Positions 30,852-61,668 of a stretch of 64,000 bases of DNA are shown in pieces; positions within the stretch are counted from its first letter, which is position 1, and the number at the start of each line of letters is the position of its first letter. This DNA comes from Thioalkalivibrio sp. ALJ24 (GTDB taxonomy: Bacteria; Pseudomonadota; Gammaproteobacteria; Ectothiorhodospirales; Ectothiorhodospiraceae), in NCBI RefSeq assembly GCF_000377785.1, contig NZ_KB898724.1, positions 310,001 to 374,000 on the forward strand. The letters run 5' to 3'. A model generated the notes under the pieces. That model was not told the origin of the DNA, made no database searches, and saw nothing but the letters and a program-made list of their open reading frames with translations. The translations under genes were made by a program, and so were the position numbers.

Positions 30852-31477
30852 GCGCCGGCGATGGCCGCCGCCCGGGCCTGGGGCCCGAAGATGTCGAGGT
30901 CCTCGAACGCGAGACGCTGTTCGAGGGTTTCTTCCGCATGGCGCGCTACACCCTGCGCCACCGGCTGTTCGAGGGCGGCTGGAGCCGGCAGCTGACGCGC
31001 GAGCGCTTCGAGCGCGGCCACGCGGCCGTGCTGTTGCCCTATGACCCGGTGGCCGATCGGGTGGTGCTGATCGAGCAGTTCCGGGTCGGCGCGCTGGAAA
31101 AGCCGTCCGGCCCCTGGTTGCTGGAATTTGTCGCCGGCGTGATCGAGGCGGACGAGTCACCGGAGACGGTGGTGCGCCGCGAGGCGCTCGAGGAGGCCGG
31201 GGTGACCCCGGGGCGCATCGAGTTCGTGCAGGAGGTATACGTCAGCCCCGGCGGCAATTCCGAATCGCTGCGGATCTACTGTGGCGAGGTGGACAGCCTG
31301 GGCGTGGGCGGTGTGCACGGGCTGCACGAGGAGGACGAGGACATCCGGGTGTTCACCGTGCCCTTCGACGAGGCGCTGCAGTTGATGTACGACGGCCGCA
31401 TCGACTCGGCCGGCCCGGTGATCGCCCTGCAGTGGCTGGCCCTCAACCGCGAGCGGTTGCGGCGCGTCTGGACCTGA
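30848..31477 (+). CDS. nudF: ADP-ribose pyrophosphatase (NudF type)
   Basis: 209 residues from a GTG whose GTGA overlaps the peptidase stop. The Nudix box (97-119) reads G-x5-E-x7-REALEEAG and matches the consensus. The preceding FEGGWSRQLTRERFERGHAA and VLIEQFRVGALE segments are typical of ADP-ribose or GDP-mannose hydrolases of the NudF/NudK branch. It probably cleans up ADP-ribose in the cytoplasm. Coupling to a secreted peptidase gene has no obvious functional meaning. Confidence 0.9.
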   Translation: MSAGDGRRPGLGPEDVEVLERETLFEGFFRMARYTLRHRLFEGGWSRQLTRERFERGHAAVLLPYDPVADRVVLIEQFRVGALEKPSGPWLLEFVAGVIEADESPETVVRREALEEAGVTPGRIEFVQEVYVSPGGNSESLRIYCGEVDSLGVGGVHGLHEEDEDIRVFTVPFDEALQLMYDGRIDSAGPVIALQWLALNRERLRRVWT

Positions 31478-31532
31478 GCCTCCCGTCCTGTGCGCCGCGT
31501 CGTGGGAAGGCCCCGGTTCTCTTCGGGCCGGA

Positions 31533-31562
31533 TTGACGCCGCATTGAAGGCTTCCGGATAAT
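31533..31562 (+). promoter_or_regulatory. Strong sigma-70-like promoter for the kai operon
   Basis: TTGACG at 31533-31538 and GATAAT at 31557-31562 are separated by 18 bases; each hexamer has five of six consensus bases. Transcription would start near 31569, leaving about 40 bases to the kaiB GTG at 31609. No other gene lies between, so this should drive kaiB, kaiC and the cyclase together. Confidence 0.65.
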
Positions 31563-31608
31563 CCCCGGTCAGCAACAGGGGCGAGCAACCGCCGTCCGGG
31601 GAGGGTTT

Positions 31609-31908
31609 GTGGCGCAGGAATACCTGCTCCGCCTGTACGTGACGGGGCAGACGGCCCGGTCCGCGCGGGCACTGGCCAATCTGCAGGCCATCTGTGAAGA
31701 GGAGCTCCAGGGGCGCTACCGGATCGAGGTGATCGACGTACTCGAGAACCCGGAACGCGGCGAGGACGAGCGCATCGTGGCCACCCCCACGCTGATCCGC
31801 GAACTGCCACCCCCCATCCGCCGAATCATCGGCGATCTCTCCGACCGCGACGAGGTGCTGCACGGCCTGGAACTGGTCGGGCCCGGGCAGCGGGAGCCGC
31901 TGCAATGA
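31609..31908 (+). CDS. kaiB: KaiB family protein
   Basis: 99 residues from a GTG with GGGAGGG just upstream. It has the KaiB thioredoxin-like signature: YLLRLYVTGQTARSARAL, the NLQAICEEEL helix, YRIEVIDVLENPE, and ATPTLIRELPPPIRRIIGDLSD. In cyanobacteria KaiB switches fold and binds the KaiC CI ring; non-cyanobacterial KaiB proteins work with KaiC in timing or stress responses. Its stop overlaps the kaiC ATG (ATGA), so the two are made together. No KaiA homologue is present in the window. Confidence 0.95.
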   Translation: MAQEYLLRLYVTGQTARSARALANLQAICEEELQGRYRIEVIDVLENPERGEDERIVATPTLIRELPPPIRRIIGDLSDRDEVLHGLELVGPGQREPLQ

Positions 31909-33410
31909 CAGGCGGGGATCAACCCGCTCCGGCGGGCGGTATCGACAAGCTGGTCACCGGCATCCCGGGTTTTGATGCGATCGCTCGGGGCGGCCTGCCG
32001 GCGGGGCGCACCACGCTGGTGGCGGGTACCCCGGGCAGCGCCAAGACCGTGTTCGCCGGTCAGTTCCTGGCCGCCGGCATCCGGCGGGACGATGCCCCCG
32101 GGGTGTTCGTGACCTGCGAAGAGGGGCCGGCCGACCTGCGGCGCAACTTCGGGGCCTTCGGCTGGCCGGTCGACGACTGGGAGGCTGACGGGCGCTGGGT
32201 GTTCGTCGACGTCTCGCCGGATCCCGATGAAGAGACCGTGGAGGCCGGCAGCTACGACCTCGGGGCGCTGCTGGCGCGCATCGAGCATGCGGTGGAGCGC
32301 AGCGGTGCCCGACGCCTGGCAATCGATTCGCTGGGCGCGCTGTTCGCGCGTTTCCCCGACACTCGCCAGGTGCGCCGCGACCTGTTCCGCATCGCCGCAC
32401 GGCTGAAGGCGCTGGGCGTGACGGCGATCATGACCGCGGAGCGCGAGACCGAATACGGCCCGGTTGCACGCCACGGGGTCGAGGAATTCGTCGCCGACAA
32501 CGTGGTGATCCTGCGCAACATCCTCGAGCACGAGACCCGCCGGCGCACGCTGGAGATCCTCAAGTTCCGCGGCACGCAGCACCAGAAGGGCGAATACCCG
32601 TTCACCATCCTGCCGGATGCCGGGCTGATCGCGATCCCGTTGTCGGCGATGGAACTGACCCAGCATTCCACCGACGTGCGTACCACCTCGGGCAACGAGG
32701 AGCTGGACCGCATGTGTGGCGGTGGTTTCTACCGCGACTCGATCGTGCTGGTGTCCGGCGCCACCGGCACTGGCAAGACCCTGATGGCGACGGAATTCAC
32801 CGAGGGCGGACTGGCCGCCGGCGAACGCTGCATGCTGTTCGCCTTCGAGGAAAGCCGCGAACAGCTGATGCGCAATGCGCGCGGCTGGGACGTCGATTAT
32901 GCGCCGGCGGAGGAAGCCGGAAACCTGGCGATCCGCTGCGAGTATCCCGAGGTCGCCGGGCTGGAGGACCACCTGGTCCGCATCAAGGAGGCGATCGACC
33001 GGTTCCGCCCGGACCGGGTGGCGCTGGACAGCCTGACCGCGCTGGAACGCGTGGCCACCCCGCGCGGTTTCCGCGAGTTCGTGATCAGCCTGACCTCCTT
33101 CATCAAGGAGCGCCAGATCGCGGGGCTCTTCACCGCCTCCACGCCGTCATTGATGGGGGGTGCGTCGGTGACCGAGGCGCATATCTCGACCCTGACCGAT
33201 TCCATCATCGTCCTGCGTTATGTCGAGATGCGTGGCCGCGTGCATCGCGGCCTGGCCGTGCTGAAGATGCGCGGGGCGGGACACGACGCCGGGATCCGGC
33301 GTTTCAGCATTGATCATCGCGGGATGCACATCGGCGAGCCCTTCCGGGGCGTGGAGGGCATTCTCGAAGGTCATCCGGTGCACGTGCGACAAACGGACGA
33401 AGACGCATGA
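31905..33410 (+). CDS. kaiC: KaiC family double RecA-domain ATPase/kinase
   Basis: 501 residues, slightly shorter than cyanobacterial KaiC. CI has Walker A GTPGSAKT (41-48) and the catalytic pair E72-E73. CII has Walker A GATGTGKT (285-292) and E315-E316. The autophosphorylation pair is conserved as S428-T429 in TEAHISTLTD, with T423 at the position of cyanobacterial T426. The C-terminal tail beyond the CII domain is short, so the KaiA-binding A-loop tail is probably missing. It should hexamerise and cycle through phosphorylation with KaiB. It overlaps both neighbours by ATGA. Confidence 0.95.
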   Translation: MTGGDQPAPAGGIDKLVTGIPGFDAIARGGLPAGRTTLVAGTPGSAKTVFAGQFLAAGIRRDDAPGVFVTCEEGPADLRRNFGAFGWPVDDWEADGRWVFVDVSPDPDEETVEAGSYDLGALLARIEHAVERSGARRLAIDSLGALFARFPDTRQVRRDLFRIAARLKALGVTAIMTAERETEYGPVARHGVEEFVADNVVILRNILEHETRRRTLEILKFRGTQHQKGEYPFTILPDAGLIAIPLSAMELTQHSTDVRTTSGNEELDRMCGGGFYRDSIVLVSGATGTGKTLMATEFTEGGLAAGERCMLFAFEESREQLMRNARGWDVDYAPAEEAGNLAIRCEYPEVAGLEDHLVRIKEAIDRFRPDRVALDSLTALERVATPRGFREFVISLTSFIKERQIAGLFTASTPSLMGGASVTEAHISTLTDSIIVLRYVEMRGRVHRGLAVLKMRGAGHDAGIRRFSIDHRGMHIGEPFRGVEGILEGHPVHVRQTDEDA

Positions 33411-34756
33411 CTCCCAGCATGAATATGGCAGCAATGGAATCCCCGGCCATGAGGCCGCCCCCTGCGTACTGGCTGGGGGACGGCGGCGGCGACGGGTTCG
33501 GCGGGTCGGGGCACCCGTCGGAAAATGAACTGCGGGCGATCCTCGACTCGTCCGCCGACGCCATCATCGTGGTCGACTCCCGTGGCGTGCTGCGCTACGC
33601 CAACCCCGCCGCCGACCGGCTGTTCGGGCGCGACCTGCAGGCGCTGCGCGGCACCGGTTTCGGCTTTCCCACGGCACCGGGGCGCACCGAGATCGACGTG
33701 CTGCCACCGGGCGAGAAACCGCGGGTGGCGGAGATGCACGTCACCTCGCTGACCTGGGAGCACGAGGCGGCCAGTCTGGCGATCCTGCGCGACGTGACCG
33801 AGCGCAAGGCGATGGAAGACGAGCTGCGCCTGGCCGCGCAGGTGTTCGACAACGCCTCCGAGGGGCTGCTGATCACCGATGCCGGGCAACGTGTGCTGAA
33901 GGTAAACCCTGCCTTCCTGTCCATCACCGGCTACGAGCCCGGTGAGGTATACGGGCGCCCGATGGGCGACCTGCTGGACTCCGAACTGCAGGACCCGGCG
34001 CTGCCGGGGGACATCGAGGCCGGAGTCCGCGAGGACGGCCGCTGGGAAGGCGAACTGATCAAGCGTCGCCGCGACGGCACCGCCTGCTACACCTGGACCA
34101 CGGTGATCGCGGTGCGCGACGAGGCCGAACAGCCGACTCACTTCATCGTGACCTTCGAGGACATCACCCGCTGGAAAGAGGCGGAGCGGCGCCTGGATCA
34201 CCTGGCACATGCCGATCCGCTGACCGACCTGCCCAACCGCAACGCCTTCCACCAGCACCTCGATCTGGCCCTGGGGCAGGCGAGGCGCCACGGTGACGTG
34301 GTGGCGGTCCTGTTCCTCGATCTGGATCACTTCAAGCCGGTCAACGATGCCCTTGGCCATTCGATGGGCGACGAGATCCTGCAGGCGGTCGCCCGACGCC
34401 TGCGCGAGACGGTGCGCGGGAGCGATCTGGTGGCGCGTCTGGGCGGGGACGAGTTCATCGTGCTGGTACGGGACATCCAGCGCGCTGCGGATGCGGCGGT
34501 GGTGGCGCAGAAGGTGATCGACCAGCTGAGCACGCCGTTCGAGCTTTACGGACACGAGATCCACATCGGATGCAGCGTGGGCATCGCGATGTTCCCGGAT
34601 GACGGCCGCGACGGCGACGGGCTGATCCATCGCGCCGACCAGGCCATGTACCGCGCCAAGGATCACGGCCGCGGGCTGTTTGCCTTCGCCGGTGAAGCGG
34701 AAGACCGGCCGCTGAACCTCCCGCTGCGCACGGGGCACTCCGCCGACTGCAGCTGA
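33407..34756 (+). CDS. PAS-PAS-GGDEF diguanylate cyclase (kai operon output candidate)
   Basis: 449 residues; its ATG overlaps the kaiC stop (ATGA). A Gly/Pro-rich N-terminus (1-38) leads to two PAS domains (about 40-135 and 142-258) and a GGDEF domain (265-430) with intact LGGDEF (345-350) and an RxxD inhibitory site R337-D340 five residues before it. It should make cyclic di-GMP in the cytoplasm under product inhibition. No transmembrane or EAL segment is seen. Tight coupling to kaiBC suggests it reads or is controlled by KaiC state, which is inference. Confidence 0.92.
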   Translation: MTPSMNMAAMESPAMRPPPAYWLGDGGGDGFGGSGHPSENELRAILDSSADAIIVVDSRGVLRYANPAADRLFGRDLQALRGTGFGFPTAPGRTEIDVLPPGEKPRVAEMHVTSLTWEHEAASLAILRDVTERKAMEDELRLAAQVFDNASEGLLITDAGQRVLKVNPAFLSITGYEPGEVYGRPMGDLLDSELQDPALPGDIEAGVREDGRWEGELIKRRRDGTACYTWTTVIAVRDEAEQPTHFIVTFEDITRWKEAERRLDHLAHADPLTDLPNRNAFHQHLDLALGQARRHGDVVAVLFLDLDHFKPVNDALGHSMGDEILQAVARRLRETVRGSDLVARLGGDEFIVLVRDIQRAADAAVVAQKVIDQLSTPFELYGHEIHIGCSVGIAMFPDDGRDGDGLIHRADQAMYRAKDHGRGLFAFAGEAEDRPLNLPLRTGHSADCS

Positions 34757-34776
34757 GCCCCGGGCCGAACCCGGCG

Positions 34777-34992
34777 TCAGGCCGGGCAGGACTCGTCGGG
34801 TACCGGGGGCCGGCGGTCCCCGTCTTCGCCGCGTGCCAGCGGCACGGATGTCGTCGTGCCGGCCAGGGCCGCCGCGGCTACACCGCCGGCCGCATCCGTA
34901 TCGGTGTGGGCCAGCGCCGGAGTGGTGCCGGCGACCAGCAGGCCGAGCGCGGCCGCGCCGGCAAATATGAAAGTGGTCTGGCGGTGTTGCAT
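34777..34992 (-). CDS. Small secreted protein, unknown
   Basis: 71 residues from the ATG at 34992, which has GGGAGGAACG upstream. A signal peptide (about 1-30, cleavage near ALAHTD) leaves a mature part of only about 40 residues, Ala/Thr-rich and then Asp/Pro-rich, with a single cysteine near the C-terminus. I recognise no family. It faces the kai-operon cyclase gene tail to tail; a 6-base GC hairpin (34770-34786) sits between the two stops. Confidence 0.55.
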   Translation of the reverse strand: MQHRQTTFIFAGAAALGLLVAGTTPALAHTDTDAAGGVAAAALAGTTTSVPLARGEDGDRRPPVPDESCPA

Positions 34993-35138
34993 GACGTTCC
35001 TCCCGCGTGTCCGGTAGCAAGACGGACCCTGCGAGAAGAGACGGGGATGCCGTGCCCGGCATTCCGCACGAGCGGCAGGAATGAAACGGGCCGGGCAGCG
35101 TCCCATGGGTAGCGGAAGAACCTGAGGGAATGTAGCTG

Positions 35139-36140
35139 ATGAAGAGACTGCAATGGATGATGGCCGGATGCCTCTGGCTGGTCATGGCCGCTCCGCTCGG
35201 TGCGGACGTGAAGATCGACGTCGAGATTCCGGGGCCGGACGAGCGCCTGAGTGATGCCCGCACCAGTGATCTGGAACGGGTGGATCAGCTGCAGCCGGTG
35301 CGGGTGGCGGAGGACGTCTACGCCATCATCGGCTCCATCGAGGGGCGGACCTACGACAACCTCGGGCTGACCATGAATCTCGGCTTCGTGGTGACCGACG
35401 AGGGCGTCGTGTTGATCGATTCCGGCCCGTCGTACGCGTTTGGCGAGATGCTGGAGGAGGCGATCGGGGAAGTCACCGATCAGCCGGTGACCCATGTGAT
35501 CGGCATCGGGTCGCAGGATCACCGCTGGATGGCGGATGGCTATTTCCGCGAGCAGGGAGCCGAGCTGATCACCCTGGAACGCACGGCCGAGACCCGGAAG
35601 GACTTTGCCGACGACCACATCGAACGCATGTCGGGCATCCTCGAGGACCGTTTCGAGGGTACCGAGGCCGTGGTGACCGACGAGCCGCTGGAAGGTGACC
35701 GCCACGAGCTGAAGATCGGCGGCACCGAGTTCCATCTGGAGTTCTGGGCGGATGCCCATTTCCCCGGGGACGCGGTGGTGTATCTGCCGCAGACCGATGT
35801 CTTCTTCTCCGGAGACATGGTCTATCTCGACCGCATGCTGGGCATCCACCCGTGGAGTGACCCGGTGGCCTGGCTGACCGCGGTGGAAAAGCTGGAAGAG
35901 AAGGCACCGGCCGCCGTGGTGCCCGGCCACGGCGATGTGGCGGGCATGGATCTCGTGACCGCCGAAACCGGGGACTACCTGCGGTTCGTGGTAAGCGGCG
36001 TGGAACAGGCCCACGAGGACTGGGCCTCGCTGCAGGAGACCGTGGATGACCTGGCCGATGCACCCGAGTTCGAGCATCTCGAGCACTTCGGCGACTGGCA
36101 TCGGCCCAACATCAACCGGACCTATCTCTTCATGGAGTAG
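35139..36140 (+). CDS. Secreted metallo-beta-lactamase-fold protein with altered zinc site
   Basis: 333 residues with a signal peptide (about 1-22). The MBL fold is clear: LGFVVTDEGVVLIDSGPS, a HFPGDAVVYLP segment, FSGDMVYLDRML and VPGHGDV. The usual HxHxDH is replaced by GSQDHRW (124-130), so the two site-1 histidines are missing while the Asp and His of site 2 remain. This resembles SoxH-like or quinoprotein-associated MBL proteins found in sulfur oxidisers. A mononuclear metal site is possible. The substrate is unknown. A TlpA-like gene follows and may be co-transcribed. Confidence 0.82.
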   Translation: MKRLQWMMAGCLWLVMAAPLGADVKIDVEIPGPDERLSDARTSDLERVDQLQPVRVAEDVYAIIGSIEGRTYDNLGLTMNLGFVVTDEGVVLIDSGPSYAFGEMLEEAIGEVTDQPVTHVIGIGSQDHRWMADGYFREQGAELITLERTAETRKDFADDHIERMSGILEDRFEGTEAVVTDEPLEGDRHELKIGGTEFHLEFWADAHFPGDAVVYLPQTDVFFSGDMVYLDRMLGIHPWSDPVAWLTAVEKLEEKAPAAVVPGHGDVAGMDLVTAETGDYLRFVVSGVEQAHEDWASLQETVDDLADAPEFEHLEHFGDWHRPNINRTYLFME

Positions 36141-44697: not shown

Positions 44698-47445
44698 TCA
44701 GGGCTTCTGGGCGGTCAAGACCGCCACTCGGTCGCGGCCCTGTTCCTTGGCGCGGTAGAGGGCCTGGTCAGCCGTGTGCAGCAGGACCGAGGGGTCGGAA
44801 ACTTCCGGGCTGGCCGGATGCAAGGCCGTGGCCCCGATGCTGACCGTGACCCGCCCGGCGTCGACGGTTTCGTGGGGTAGGGCGAGACCGCGTACCGCGG
44901 CCCGGATCCGCTCGGCGACCTTGCGGGCTCCGTCCAGGTCGGTTGCGGGCAGGATGCAGGCGAACTCCTCGCCGCCGTAGCGTGCGACCAGGTCGGTACT
45001 GCGCGGCACGGCATCGGCTATTGCCCCGGCCACGGCCTTCAGCGCGTCGTCACCGGCCAGATGGCCATGCTGGTCGTTGTAGCGTTTGAAAAGGTCGATG
45101 TCGAGCAGCAGCAGCCCGAGAGAATCGTCGCTGCGCGCCGCATGCTTCCACGCCTGCTCCAGCGTCTCGTCGAAGCAGCGGCGGTTGGCCACGCCGGTGA
45201 GGCCATCGATCGAGGAGAGGCGCTCGAGTTCTGCCTGGGCGCGCTTGCGTTCCGTGATATCGCGCACTACCGCCTGCAGTAATCGCCGACCCTCCACGTT
45301 CATGGTGGTGAGCAGCACTTCCGACGTAAAGACCTCGCCGTCCATCCGTTGGTGCTGCCACTCGAACAGATGGCTGCCCTGTTCGACGGCGGTACGGATT
45401 TGCTCGCCCGCCAGCGTGCGCGAGTCGGCTCCGCCGGGCTGCACGGGCGGAGACAGATCGGCGGGGTGCTTGTCGAGGAATTCTTCCCGACTGGCGCAGC
45501 CGAACATCTTCAGGGTGGCGTCGTTGCAGTCGAGAAAGTCGGATTCGTCCAGCAATATGACGGCATCGGAAGTGGCCTCGAAGAGGGTGCGATGCTTCGC
45601 TTCCGAGCGCCTCAACTCCACCTCCGCCTCCCGCCGGGCGAAGGCGCCGGCGACAATCTCGGCCACCAGGTTGAGCGAAGTGATCTGCTCGTCGGTCCAC
45701 ACCCGCCGGCGCACGACCATGTCGTACCCCAGGAAGCCGTAGACCTTTCGGTCGATGATCAGCGGCAGGCAAAGCAGTGACTGAATTCTCTGGCGCTGGA
45801 ATTCGGCCCGTTCCGGAAGGTTCTCGGGGAGAATGGCCAGGTCGGGCAGGTGCACGCTTTCACCGCGCAGTATCCGGTCGGTAATCCAGGCATGATGGTC
45901 CAGCGGGATCGATTGCAGGGTCTCCCGGTGGGGACTGACCCCTTCGTTGCACCACTCGTGGGTGTTGCTCATGGTGGTGCCGTCATCGCCGAAACGGAAT
46001 ATGTAGCTTCGATCGGCAGCAAAGAACGCGCCGGTGCGCTCCAGTGCTCGATCGATTGCGCTATCCAGTCCCGCGCCGGCAAGGTTGACCATCTCCGCGG
46101 AGATCTCGACCACCATCGCCTGCAGCCGGGCCTGGGCCTGGCGGGTCTCTTCCGCGCGGCGTCGCGCGAGAGTACTGGAGAAGATTTCCCCCACGACCTG
46201 CAGCAGGCGGATCTCGCTGTCACTCCAGTGGTGCGAGATGCGGACCAGATCGAGGCCGTAAAAGCCGAACGCCTGTCCATCGGTGGACAGGGGCAGCATC
46301 AAAAGGGAGCGGATGGACTGGGCGCGGAACTCGGCCCGCTCGTTGGCCGCCTCCGGCGGCAGGGCCTCCACATCGGGCACGTGCACGGGCTGTTGTCGAC
46401 GGATGTGGTCGGTGCACCAGGAGTAGGCGGCCATCGGCACCTCGGAGATGCGGTAAGCCTGGGGTGCCACGCCCTCGTCGCACCACTCATGGGTGTTGTC
46501 CATCAGGCACCCGTCGTCCCGAAACTGAAAGACGTAAGTGCGATCGGCCTCGAAGAATCGGCCGATGCGTTCCAGCGCCCTGTGGATGGCATCGTCCGCC
46601 CGTTCTACCGGGGTGTTGACCATGTCGGCCGAGATGGCCGCCACCATCGCCTGGAAGTCGGTCTGGCGGCGGCGCTCGGTGATGTCATGAACAAAACCGT
46701 CGAGATAGGCCACACCGCCGTCGCGGTCGAAAATCGCCCGGCCTTTTTCATGCACCCAGCGGACCCGACCATCCTTGCGGCAAATCCGGTACTCGATATC
46801 CCAGCCCTGTTTCCGGGCCACACCGGTTGTGACACTCTGATCCACGAAAGCGAGATCGTCCGGGTGCGTCACGCTCTTGATGGTTCGCACCGCATTGTTG
46901 ATGAAGTCCGCGGCCGGGTGGCCGGTCACCAGCTCCGCGCCCTCGCTGACATAGAGCGCGGTCCAGTCTTCATCGAGCTTGCAGCGGTAGGTGATCCCGG
47001 GGATGTTTTCCGTCATCGCCTGAAGCTGGTCGCGGGCGTAGCGGATCTCCTCGATGGCCTGCTCGTGCTCGGCGATGTCGCGCAGGACCACCACCGCGTA
47101 CCAATGACCGTCGAGAGCGACCGACGAGACCGACAACGCCGTCGTGATCTCGTGGCCGCCGCGGTGCAGCACCTTCATCTCGTTGAGCGTGCCGACCGCT
47201 TGCCCGTCCCGGTGCTCCCGGGCGTGGTGCAACCCCTCGCGGAACGCGGCCCGGTGGCGCTCCGGGACGATCCGCTCACAAACGGGGTGACCGTACATGG
47301 TGGCCCGGTCATGGCCGAGCAGGGCCTCGAAGGCCCGGTTGGCGAAGACGAGGCGGTTCTCGTCGTCGATGATCAGGATCGCATCCGGCGCCGCCGTGGC
47401 AATGGCCTCGGTGAGTGCGTCGGGAGCCAGTGGGCGGAATGTCAT
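44698..47445 (-). CDS. Multi-sensor diguanylate cyclase (PAS-PAS-GAF-GAF-PAS-GGDEF)
   Basis: 915 residues, no membrane segment. Two PAS domains (about 10-130 and 140-260) are followed by two similar GAF domains (about 265-435 and 440-610), each with an N-T-H-E-W-C motif and matching RSLLMLPL/QSLLCLPL strands, then a third PAS (about 615-735) and a GGDEF domain. The active site is GGEEF with an RxxD inhibitory site (RSTD) five residues before it, so c-di-GMP synthesis with feedback is expected. The GAF pair is an internal duplication. It faces the ABC operon tail to tail and stands alone. Confidence 0.93.
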   Translation of the reverse strand: MTFRPLAPDALTEAIATAAPDAILIIDDENRLVFANRAFEALLGHDRATMYGHPVCERIVPERHRAAFREGLHHAREHRDGQAVGTLNEMKVLHRGGHEITTALSVSSVALDGHWYAVVVLRDIAEHEQAIEEIRYARDQLQAMTENIPGITYRCKLDEDWTALYVSEGAELVTGHPAADFINNAVRTIKSVTHPDDLAFVDQSVTTGVARKQGWDIEYRICRKDGRVRWVHEKGRAIFDRDGGVAYLDGFVHDITERRRQTDFQAMVAAISADMVNTPVERADDAIHRALERIGRFFEADRTYVFQFRDDGCLMDNTHEWCDEGVAPQAYRISEVPMAAYSWCTDHIRRQQPVHVPDVEALPPEAANERAEFRAQSIRSLLMLPLSTDGQAFGFYGLDLVRISHHWSDSEIRLLQVVGEIFSSTLARRRAEETRQAQARLQAMVVEISAEMVNLAGAGLDSAIDRALERTGAFFAADRSYIFRFGDDGTTMSNTHEWCNEGVSPHRETLQSIPLDHHAWITDRILRGESVHLPDLAILPENLPERAEFQRQRIQSLLCLPLIIDRKVYGFLGYDMVVRRRVWTDEQITSLNLVAEIVAGAFARREAEVELRRSEAKHRTLFEATSDAVILLDESDFLDCNDATLKMFGCASREEFLDKHPADLSPPVQPGGADSRTLAGEQIRTAVEQGSHLFEWQHQRMDGEVFTSEVLLTTMNVEGRRLLQAVVRDITERKRAQAELERLSSIDGLTGVANRRCFDETLEQAWKHAARSDDSLGLLLLDIDLFKRYNDQHGHLAGDDALKAVAGAIADAVPRSTDLVARYGGEEFACILPATDLDGARKVAERIRAAVRGLALPHETVDAGRVTVSIGATALHPASPEVSDPSVLLHTADQALYRAKEQGRDRVAVLTAQKP

Positions 47446-60354: not shown

Positions 60355-61668
60355 GTGACGTCCTCCGATCTCCCGGATATCCCGCAGGGACTGGCGCGGA
60401 TGGAACTGCTCGAAGCCGCGATCGAGGACACCGCGCACAGCGTGCTGATCACCGATGCGGACCTCGACGCCGGACCGCGCATCGTCTATGTGAACCGGGG
60501 CTTCGAGCAGATGACCGGTTATCGTCGGGACGAGGTCCTGGGACTCACCCCGCGCATCCTGCAGGGGCCGAAGACCTCGCGCGCGGTGCTGGACGACCTG
60601 CGGGTGACCCTGGAGCGCGGCGAGGGTTTCGACGCCGAGACCATCAACTACCGCAAGGGCGGCGAGCCCTACAGCGTGCGCTGGCACATCTCGCCGGTGC
60701 GGGTGCCGGCAGACAGCCCGAGCATTACCCATTACGTGTCGGTGCAGCGCGACGTGACCGAGGAACGCCGTCGCGAGGCTCAGCTGCGGCTGCTGTCCGC
60801 CGCGCTGGAGGCGTCCGGGGACCCGGTGCTGATCACCGATCCCGAGGGCGTGATCGTGTTCGCCAACACCGCCTTCATCGAGCTCAGCGGGTTTGACGCC
60901 GAGCACGTGATCGGCGCGACCCCGGCACTGTTCAAGTCCGAGGAGCACGACGACGACTTCTTCGCGGCGATGTGGGAACGGCTGCGCCGGGGCGAAGGCT
61001 TCCGCGGCGAGTTCGTGAACCGGCGGCCGGACGGCGAGAAGGTTCACCTGGAACAGACCATCACCCCGGTGCGCGACGACTGTGGCGAGATCACGCATTT
61101 CGTGGCCTTCGGCAAGGACGTCACCGAGCGCGTGCAGATGGAGGGCGAGATCCGGCGTCTGGCCGAGACCGACTGGCTGACGGGGCTGGCCAACCGCCTG
61201 ACCCTGGGCAATCGCCTGGAGGCGGAGATGGACCGCTGCGAACGTTATCAGCGGCCGATGGCCGTGATCATGTTCGACGTCGACCACTTCAAGGCCGTGA
61301 ACGACCGCTACGGCCACGATACCGGCGACGAGGTGCTCAAGGCAGTGGCCCGCACGGTGAACGCACAGCTGCGCGAACAGGACCTGCTCGGACGCTGGGG
61401 CGGGGAGGAATTCCTGATCTTGCTGCCGGAGACCGACGGTGCGGGAGCCGCTGCGGCGGCGGAGAAGCTGCGCCTGGTCATCGCGGAGATGGAGGTGCCG
61501 AATGCGCCGAGAGTGACCGCCAGCTTCGGGGTGGCCGAGCGGCAGCCGGGCGACACGCCGCGCGACGTCACGCGGCGTGTCGATCAGGCGATGTATCAGG
61601 CCAAGGAGGGCGGGCGCGACCGGGTCGTCCTCCTGGAGGCCGGGCGCCAAAAGCCTGCGCCCCGGTGA
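60355..61668 (+). CDS. PAS-PAS-GGDEF diguanylate cyclase
   Basis: 437 residues from a GTG six bases after the CBS gene stop. The first PAS domain (about 15-140) has the LOV-like segment TPRILQGPKT (66-75), where photoactive LOV domains carry NCRFLQG, so the flavin-binding Cys is missing. A second PAS (145-262) and a GGDEF domain (270-430) follow, with GGEEF (349-353) and an RxxD inhibitory site R340-D343. It should be an active, feedback-inhibited cyclase, probably co-transcribed with the DUF1538-PII-CBS genes. Confidence 0.92.
   Translation: MTSSDLPDIPQGLARMELLEAAIEDTAHSVLITDADLDAGPRIVYVNRGFEQMTGYRRDEVLGLTPRILQGPKTSRAVLDDLRVTLERGEGFDAETINYRKGGEPYSVRWHISPVRVPADSPSITHYVSVQRDVTEERRREAQLRLLSAALEASGDPVLITDPEGVIVFANTAFIELSGFDAEHVIGATPALFKSEEHDDDFFAAMWERLRRGEGFRGEFVNRRPDGEKVHLEQTITPVRDDCGEITHFVAFGKDVTERVQMEGEIRRLAETDWLTGLANRLTLGNRLEAEMDRCERYQRPMAVIMFDVDHFKAVNDRYGHDTGDEVLKAVARTVNAQLREQDLLGRWGGEEFLILLPETDGAGAAAAAEKLRLVIAEMEVPNAPRVTASFGVAERQPGDTPRDVTRRVDQAMYQAKEGGRDRVVLLEAGRQKPAPR

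Follow-up and report, generated by a model that had tools for sequence, protein, structure and literature searches.

The window, a 64,000-nucleotide stretch of the Thioalkalivibrio sp. ALJ24 genome, carries three overlapping genes on its forward strand: kaiB, kaiC and a gene encoding a PAS-PAS-GGDEF protein with predicted diguanylate cyclase activity. These genes and their relevant sites are located as follows.

31533–31562, + strand: promoter-like TTGACG-N18-GATAAT, 10/12 consensus matches, upstream of kaiB
31609–31908, + strand: kaiB, 99 amino acids, GTG start; PF07689 E 1.2e-28, 99 bits (cut-off 27)
31905–33410, + strand: kaiC, 501 amino acids; two PF06745 domains, 366 bits
32025–32048, + strand: P-loop of the KaiC CI domain, GTPGSAKT, with Ala46 in place of the usual Gly before Lys
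33186–33191, + strand: KaiC S428-T429, aligned with the cyanobacterial phosphosites
33407–34756, + strand: gene for the putative PAS-PAS-GGDEF diguanylate cyclase, 449 amino acids; GGDEF E 7.7e-54, EAL absent
33527–33820, + strand: first PAS domain (PAS1), of a subtype also carried by kinases and cyclases encoded at other kai loci
33821–34180, + strand: second PAS domain (PAS2), residues 139–258, bounds set in this analysis
34205–34672, + strand: GGDEF domain, residues 267–422
34415–34426, + strand: RGSD, RxxD inhibitory-site motif of the cyclase
34442–34456, + strand: GGDEF active-site motif of the cyclase

Domain profile matches agree with the gene assignments of the preliminary description, and the three genes are joined, as it had noted, by two ATGA overlaps, at 31905–31908 (kaiB/kaiC) and 33407–33410 (kaiC/cyclase). 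The promoter that it had placed ahead of kaiB is the single such site in a scan of positions 31400–35200, compared with 0.3 ± 0.6 in shuffled sequences, and identical hexamers with identical spacing are found upstream of kaiB in T. halophilus (locus L057). An SD-like GGAGGG at 31600 lies upstream of the kaiB GTG. The three genes are probably co-transcribed. No histidine kinase was found directly beside the operon when its adjoining genes were searched with signalling-domain seeds. Between the window species and T. halophilus, purifying selection acts on all three genes, with dN/dS values of 0.055, 0.086 and 0.224 for kaiB, kaiC and the cyclase gene, respectively, the cyclase diverging faster than KaiBC. 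A flanking NUDIX gene is present in 2/30 genomes (genus members; E ≤ 1e-40), namely the window genome and T. halophilus only.

KaiC scores above the cut-offs of both circadian equivalog models (TIGR02655, 593.4 versus 546.25; NF006799, 683.5 versus 408), and KaiB scores below those of both its own (TIGR02654, 105.8 versus 145.3; NF006798, 109.2 versus 110). Alignment bears out the earlier statement that KaiC has intact catalytic glutamate pairs, E72-E73 in CI and E315-E316 in CII, and retains both phosphosites; a KaiC phosphorylation cycle is probable in this strain. The alanine at position 46 of the CI P-loop recurs in 16/55 aligned KaiC rows. The chain terminates 6 residues past the region matching cyanobacterial KaiC, where the cyanobacterial chain (519 residues) continues for 21; 18 residues separate position 484 from the end, with no C-terminal extension of approximately 50 residues. 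The nearest solved KaiC structures include PDB 8zn5–8zn7.

KaiA had been reported as missing from the window, and a search of the whole genome extended this result, returning no PF07688 match at E ≤ 1, so that the KaiA expected of a KaiABC circadian oscillator was not found in this genome at that threshold. The same search gave matches in 5/14 control genomes, including S. elongatus, one of them above the cut-off. The genome contains approximately 38 GGDEF genes and, on another contig, a second kaiC-kaiB cluster accompanied by a PAS-GGDEF-EAL gene.

The cyclase retains, as described earlier, the GGDEF motif (residues 346–350) and an inhibitory RxxD site (RGSD, residues 337–340) located five residues ahead of it, both conserved in 4/4 aligned cyclases. 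The N-terminal tail of the protein has a DGG-containing motif, also in 4/4 cyclases, which is a lead only. In the predicted structure of the cyclase, PAS1 has a pLDDT of about 90, and a pTM of 0.43 makes the arrangement of domains unreliable. A fold search returned generic PAS and GGDEF structures (DosP, PA0861) and nothing specific.

A signalling gene immediately downstream, encoding a histidine kinase or a GGDEF/EAL protein, was described in 2011 for nearly all non-cyanobacterial kaiBC clusters (PMC3164672), and the window operon fits the definition of those clusters, in which kaiB or kaiC is directly followed by a gene for a GGDEF or EAL protein. The pairing of kaiBC with GGDEF genes is widespread, and the general idea is not new; in the literature searched, no experimental test of KaiBC control of a GGDEF enzyme was found. 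In a class-wide sample, a survey of the kind that the preliminary description had proposed found an adjacent same-strand GGDEF gene at 11/24 kai loci, in 8/21 genomes. With about 38 GGDEF genes among an estimated 2,600 or so, chance adjacency would amount to a few percent at most. Signalling domains of any type, the only domains covered by the neighbour seeds, adjoin 18/24, 16/20 and 9/17 kai loci in three locus sets. The third gene is conserved beside kaiBC in relatives: the kaiC-ATGA-cyclase junction is found in three genus members, the window strain and T. halophilus among them, and in genome G018 a cyclase lies directly 3′ of kaiC.

The association is nevertheless incomplete, and several loci weigh against placing the cyclase under KaiBC control. 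Among genus and family loci, 8/17 show no signalling gene beside the kai genes with these seeds, one of these (L078) being at a contig end. A kinase takes the place of the GGDEF neighbour in G015, the KaiC of which belongs to the same clade, and parsimony on one quick KaiC tree requires at least six changes between GGDEF and kinase neighbours. Halorhodospira KaiC, the closest after that of T. halophilus (77% identity), has neither a kaiB nor a GGDEF neighbour within 13.5 kb. In G247, kaiB (65% identical) is directly followed by the cyclase gene (47% identical), and no KaiC of the same clade as the window KaiC was found, the remaining KaiCs being 31% and 29% identical. In G402, a cyclase with a PAS1-type domain adjoins a frameshifted kaiB in a genome that yielded no match to KaiC at E ≤ 1e-20. 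The faster evolution of the cyclase, and the occurrence of its PAS subtype away from kai loci, count on the same side.

Judged by sequence similarity, PAS1 is a subtype common to kinase and cyclase genes beside kaiBC, an identification that is new in this analysis. With the window PAS1 as the query, 369 genomes yielded at least 17 non-self matches, at least 8 of them at kai loci (5 genomes); a 23-row PAS1 profile gave at least 19 matches at E ≤ 1e-12 in the same number of genomes, at least 9 of them at kai loci, nine that include the window and G402 and of which six are rows of the profile. These counts are lower bounds, because at most 13 candidates were scored per genome in both searches. 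Exclusivity of the subtype to kai systems was rejected, since 9/17 non-self matches lie away from kai loci: it is enriched there, not exclusive. In 7/9 of these cases a tblastn search of the retrieved flanking sequence gave neither KaiB nor KaiC, and the remaining two genomes (G068 and G250) are absent from the kaiB list. A correlation between PAS1 and KaiC distances (Mantel r 0.51, 18 loci, 0/5,000 permutations) was dropped as evidence because species relatedness was uncontrolled and close pairs were included.

The operon is interpreted here as a KaiA-less KaiBC module co-transcribed with its own output enzyme, such that c-di-GMP synthesis follows KaiBC state, an interpretation that we judge to be evenly poised between right and wrong. 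KaiBC would probably not be a self-sustained clock but would serve as an energy sensor or as a phosphorylation timer driven by ATP/ADP. Its state would be received by the N-terminal PAS of the cyclase, most simply through contact with KaiB or KaiC, and the signal would pass from PAS1 through PAS2 and the signalling helices to the GGDEF domain; c-di-GMP output would then track KaiBC state, with the RxxD site capping synthesis. Little is known of KaiBC targets outside cyanobacteria. The preliminary description had proposed the same control: the conservation of the third gene and the GGDEF neighbours uphold the association, and the control itself, like the contact between KaiBC and the cyclase and its direction, is inferred from operon structure. 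Support comes from the gene order, the overlaps, the conserved promoter and junction, the purifying selection on all three genes, the motifs, the GGDEF neighbours, the shared PAS subtype, the short C-terminal tail of KaiC and the failure to find KaiA.

There is a modest chance that the genes are only co-regulated: they would share a promoter and a condition of expression (stress or stationary phase, for example), and KaiBC would neither contact the cyclase nor signal to it. The repeated exchange of GGDEF and kinase neighbours would suit such an interchangeable neighbour, as would the Legionella kai operon, which is reported in the 2014 work of Loza-Correa to be under stress-regulator control with no contact between KaiB and KaiC; the frequency with which signalling domains adjoin kai loci, and the PAS subtype that these signalling genes share and that is concentrated there, argue otherwise. 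KaiB alone might be the partner of the cyclase, bound to it as fold-switched KaiB is bound to other clock proteins, with KaiC merely titrating KaiB, a scheme to which we assign little probability. It would account for the kaiB–cyclase pair of G247 and for several kai loci at which the GGDEF gene adjoins kaiB rather than kaiC, but kaiC sits between kaiB and the cyclase in the window and in T. halophilus, G018 has the cyclase next to kaiC, and G247 could employ another KaiC.

It is similarly improbable that the cyclase provides input. In that scheme the PAS-PAS-GGDEF protein would sense a metabolite, oxygen or redox state and would adjust KaiBC through either its PAS domain or the c-di-GMP that it makes. 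PAS domains are usual sensors, and the initial part of PAS1 weakly matches FixL PAS structures (E 4.5e-4). According to PMC13001216, altered c-di-GMP shifts the period and phase of the S. elongatus clock, but the KaiB–KaiC binding rhythm is unaffected by c-di-GMP, and in vitro KaiC phosphorylation does not respond to it consistently; moreover, at other kai loci the position of the cyclase is occupied by a kinase, a usual output.

If c-di-GMP synthesis does follow KaiBC state, c-di-GMP, and with it lifestyle decisions such as motility and biofilm formation, would be driven in a bacterium outside the cyanobacteria by a timer that has no KaiA, on a cycle of the day or of energy. The compact three-gene unit with its GGDEF-only enzyme is a simple case for reconstitution. 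The shift of the S. elongatus clock by c-di-GMP, recently shown in PMC13001216, makes the reverse link, from KaiBC to c-di-GMP, timely. More speculatively, and with rather low confidence, the PAS subtype may be a plug-in receiver of KaiBC state outside cyanobacteria, the effector being swapped among histidine kinase, cyclase and cyclase-phosphodiesterase, with this operon timing c-di-GMP; KaiBC would then be a general timer-to-any-output device, and KaiB may be the point of contact, because a kaiB–cyclase pair persists without its kaiC.

Among known systems, the operon resembles context group 1 of PMC3164672 in its non-cyanobacterial kaiB-kaiC pair, its signalling gene immediately downstream and its ST phosphosites, and differs in having GGDEF without EAL and in its host, a Thioalkalivibrio relative. 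It shares a PAS-bearing output gene with the kaiC-kaiB-PAS/HK operon of Rhodobacter sphaeroides and Rhodopseudomonas palustris, and the absence of KaiA with R. sphaeroides, but its output is a cyclase and its gene order is different; in addition, R. sphaeroides KaiC is, according to PMC10076222, extended at its C-terminus by a coiled coil of roughly 50 residues, which the window KaiC lacks. As in the cyanobacterial KaiABC-SasA system, KaiB and KaiC are combined with a dedicated output protein, whereas no KaiA was found and the output gene of the operon encodes a second-messenger enzyme instead of a kinase. The Legionella pneumophila kai operon (kaiB, kaiC and lpp1114) likewise has three genes. 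SiaC of the SiaC–SiaD pair is not known to be related to KaiB or KaiC. That pair (PDB 7e6g) offers a precedent for the activation of a GGDEF cyclase by a stand-alone partner protein.

The three genes form a real, conserved operon. Their coordinates confirm both the positions given in the preliminary description and an ATGA overlap at each of the two junctions, kaiB/kaiC and kaiC/cyclase:

31609–31908, plus strand: kaiB (Pfam and NCBIfam)
31905–33410, plus strand: kaiC, with two KaiC domains (Pfam and NCBIfam)
33407–34756, plus strand: PAS-PAS-GGDEF gene; its product has two PAS domains and lacks EAL (Pfam and NCBIfam)

The promoter proposed ahead of kaiB corresponds to a promoter-like site, TTGACG-18-GATAAT at 31533–31562, the sole one in a scan of 31400–35200 (0.3 expected by chance). 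The window KaiC scores above the NCBIfam circadian KaiC equivalog cut-off, and the window KaiB falls short of the threshold in both models for circadian KaiB. Alignment to cyanobacterial KaiC bears out the retention of both glutamate pairs (E72–E73 and E315–E316) and of the S428–T429 phosphosites, and the cyclase keeps GGDEF together with its inhibitory site, RGSD, five residues N-terminal of it. The KaiC CI P-loop, GTPGSAKT (32025–32048), carries Ala at the usual Gly, as in 16 of 55 KaiC rows. The N-terminal tail of the cyclase (33407–33520) diverges fast, yet a short DGG-containing motif is present in 4/4 GGDEF-only relatives.

KaiC was found in 5 of 30 genus genomes (E ≤ 1e-40), so the kai module is patchy across the genus. 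The window genome's nearest relative in the sample, Thioalkalivibrio halophilus HL17 (KaiC identity 93%), carries the whole three-gene set with the two overlaps, and its promoter hexamers are the same and equally spaced; identities are 97% (kaiB), 92% (kaiC) and 80% (cyclase), with dN/dS of 0.055, 0.086 and 0.224, respectively. Conservation of the third gene, a point raised in the preliminary description, extends to the kaiC-ATGA-cyclase junction of T. halophilus and of genome G018 (66% complete), in which a contig starting within the 3′ end of kaiC continues through the junction into a cyclase of 56% identity. Genome G015 has a same-clade KaiC (65%) but a histidine kinase bearing the same PAS subtype. 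The next nearest KaiC (77%) is that of Halorhodospira abdelmalekii, with neither kaiB nor GGDEF genes found within 13.5 kb; it is flanked by a PAS-MCP gene on one side and a HAMP-MCP gene on the other (L058:5077–9610), chemoreceptor-type neighbours hinting at a link to chemotaxis.

The suggested survey of kaiBC neighbours showed GGDEF genes to be recurrent. Adjacency meant the same strand and at most 250 bases; it was scored on extended loci by means of domain seeds, which pick up signalling proteins alone. In the class-wide sample, kaiB occurs in 22 of 369 genomes (E ≤ 1e-10), and, leaving the window genome aside, the 28 kaiB matches group into 24 loci of 21 genomes; L103 and L106, each with a split or interrupted gene, were left out of the counts. 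A GGDEF gene adjoins 11 of these 24 loci (8 genomes), 6 of the 20 loci nearest in KaiC (in one of the six, the gene encodes a histidine kinase whose GGDEF domain is weak) and 7 of 17 genus and family loci, counting the window and T. halophilus, the latter of which also belongs to the KaiC-nearest set. Eight of the 17 have no signalling neighbour by the domain-seed test. At a Desulfobacterales locus (L062:7703–10036), the gene after kaiBC encodes a single protein that combines a receiver, two PAS domains and a kinase with a weak GGDEF domain at the C-terminus.

A quick KaiC tree was built from 54 of the 55 rows, leaving out one long row; 33 rows were labelled by hand (18 GGDEF, 15 kinase) and 21 left unlabelled. 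The tree requires at least 6 changes of neighbour type. In 200 label shuffles the mean was 11.0, and no shuffle came down to 6; neighbour type is therefore partly inherited with KaiC, yet repeatedly swapped. In the 55-row tree, support is weak at 18 of 52 inner forks.

The first PAS domain of the cyclase (PAS1) is of a compact subtype (NPAA..LFGR..FGFP..TEID..AEM..W..LRDVTER) that, at kai loci of several phyla, precedes domains of three types: kinase, cyclase and cyclase-phosphodiesterase. With window PAS1 as the sole query, to lessen seed bias, the 369 genomes gave 17 non-self matches (E ≤ 1e-7) among the at most 13 candidates scored per genome. Of these, 8 belong to kai loci, spread over 5 genomes and with the three best among them, and 9 lie elsewhere; flanks were checked for 7 of the 9, G068 and G250 being judged through the kaiB survey. 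The six full-length non-kai matches lie in open frames of 723–1747 residues, and the small GGDEF-only carriers among the matches (G247, two in G373, a split one in G131, and G402) all adjoin kaiB or kaiC. Solved structures (FixL) match PAS1 weakly and over no more than its first ~40 residues; in the predicted cyclase structure PAS1 has a pLDDT near 90, with a whole-chain pTM of 0.43.

Control of the cyclase by KaiBC state is the most likely reading of the operon, judging from sequence. Two loci run against a tight KaiC–cyclase bond. In G247 (L095:5612–7306), kaiB (65%) is followed directly by a GGDEF-only cyclase (47%), and no KaiC of the window clade was found in that genome; in G402 (L136:8222–9455), rated 100% complete and with zero KaiC matches at E ≤ 1e-20, a frameshifted kaiB precedes an intact PAS-GGDEF gene, apparently a kai-cyclase module in decay. 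The pair fits either module decay or KaiB as the partner.

A KaiA search of the whole window genome (2.8 Mb, 20 contigs) gave zero matches, in line with the lack described. A second kai cluster on a separate contig (L009:4382–9147) comprises a PAS-GGDEF-EAL gene, kaiC and a kaiB-like gene; its KaiC, of 573 residues, carries a long extension at its C-terminus, with 98 residues counted from the position that aligns with 484. The window cyclase has 39 matches in its own genome at E ≤ 1e-10, itself included, at least one covering the PAS part only. Two more GGDEF-matching stretches lie inside the window, at 44722–45645 (minus strand) and 60739–61638 (plus strand).

In the literature searched, with most subscription journals outside its coverage, we found neither a publication on this locus nor an experimental test of a KaiBC–cyclase link, for which this operon would be a good case, given its GGDEF-only enzyme and shared PAS subtype. 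Loci of this kind were already in print in 2011, when a histidine kinase or GGDEF/EAL gene was stated to lie immediately downstream of almost all kaiC-kaiB clusters outside cyanobacteria (PMC3164672). Purple bacteria have a kaiC-B-PAS/HK or PAS arrangement (PMC4794148, PMC6627678), the KaiA-less KaiBC timer of R. sphaeroides is driven by ATP/ADP (PMC10076222), and c-di-GMP, without action on KaiB–KaiC binding in vitro, shifts the S. elongatus clock (PMC13001216).
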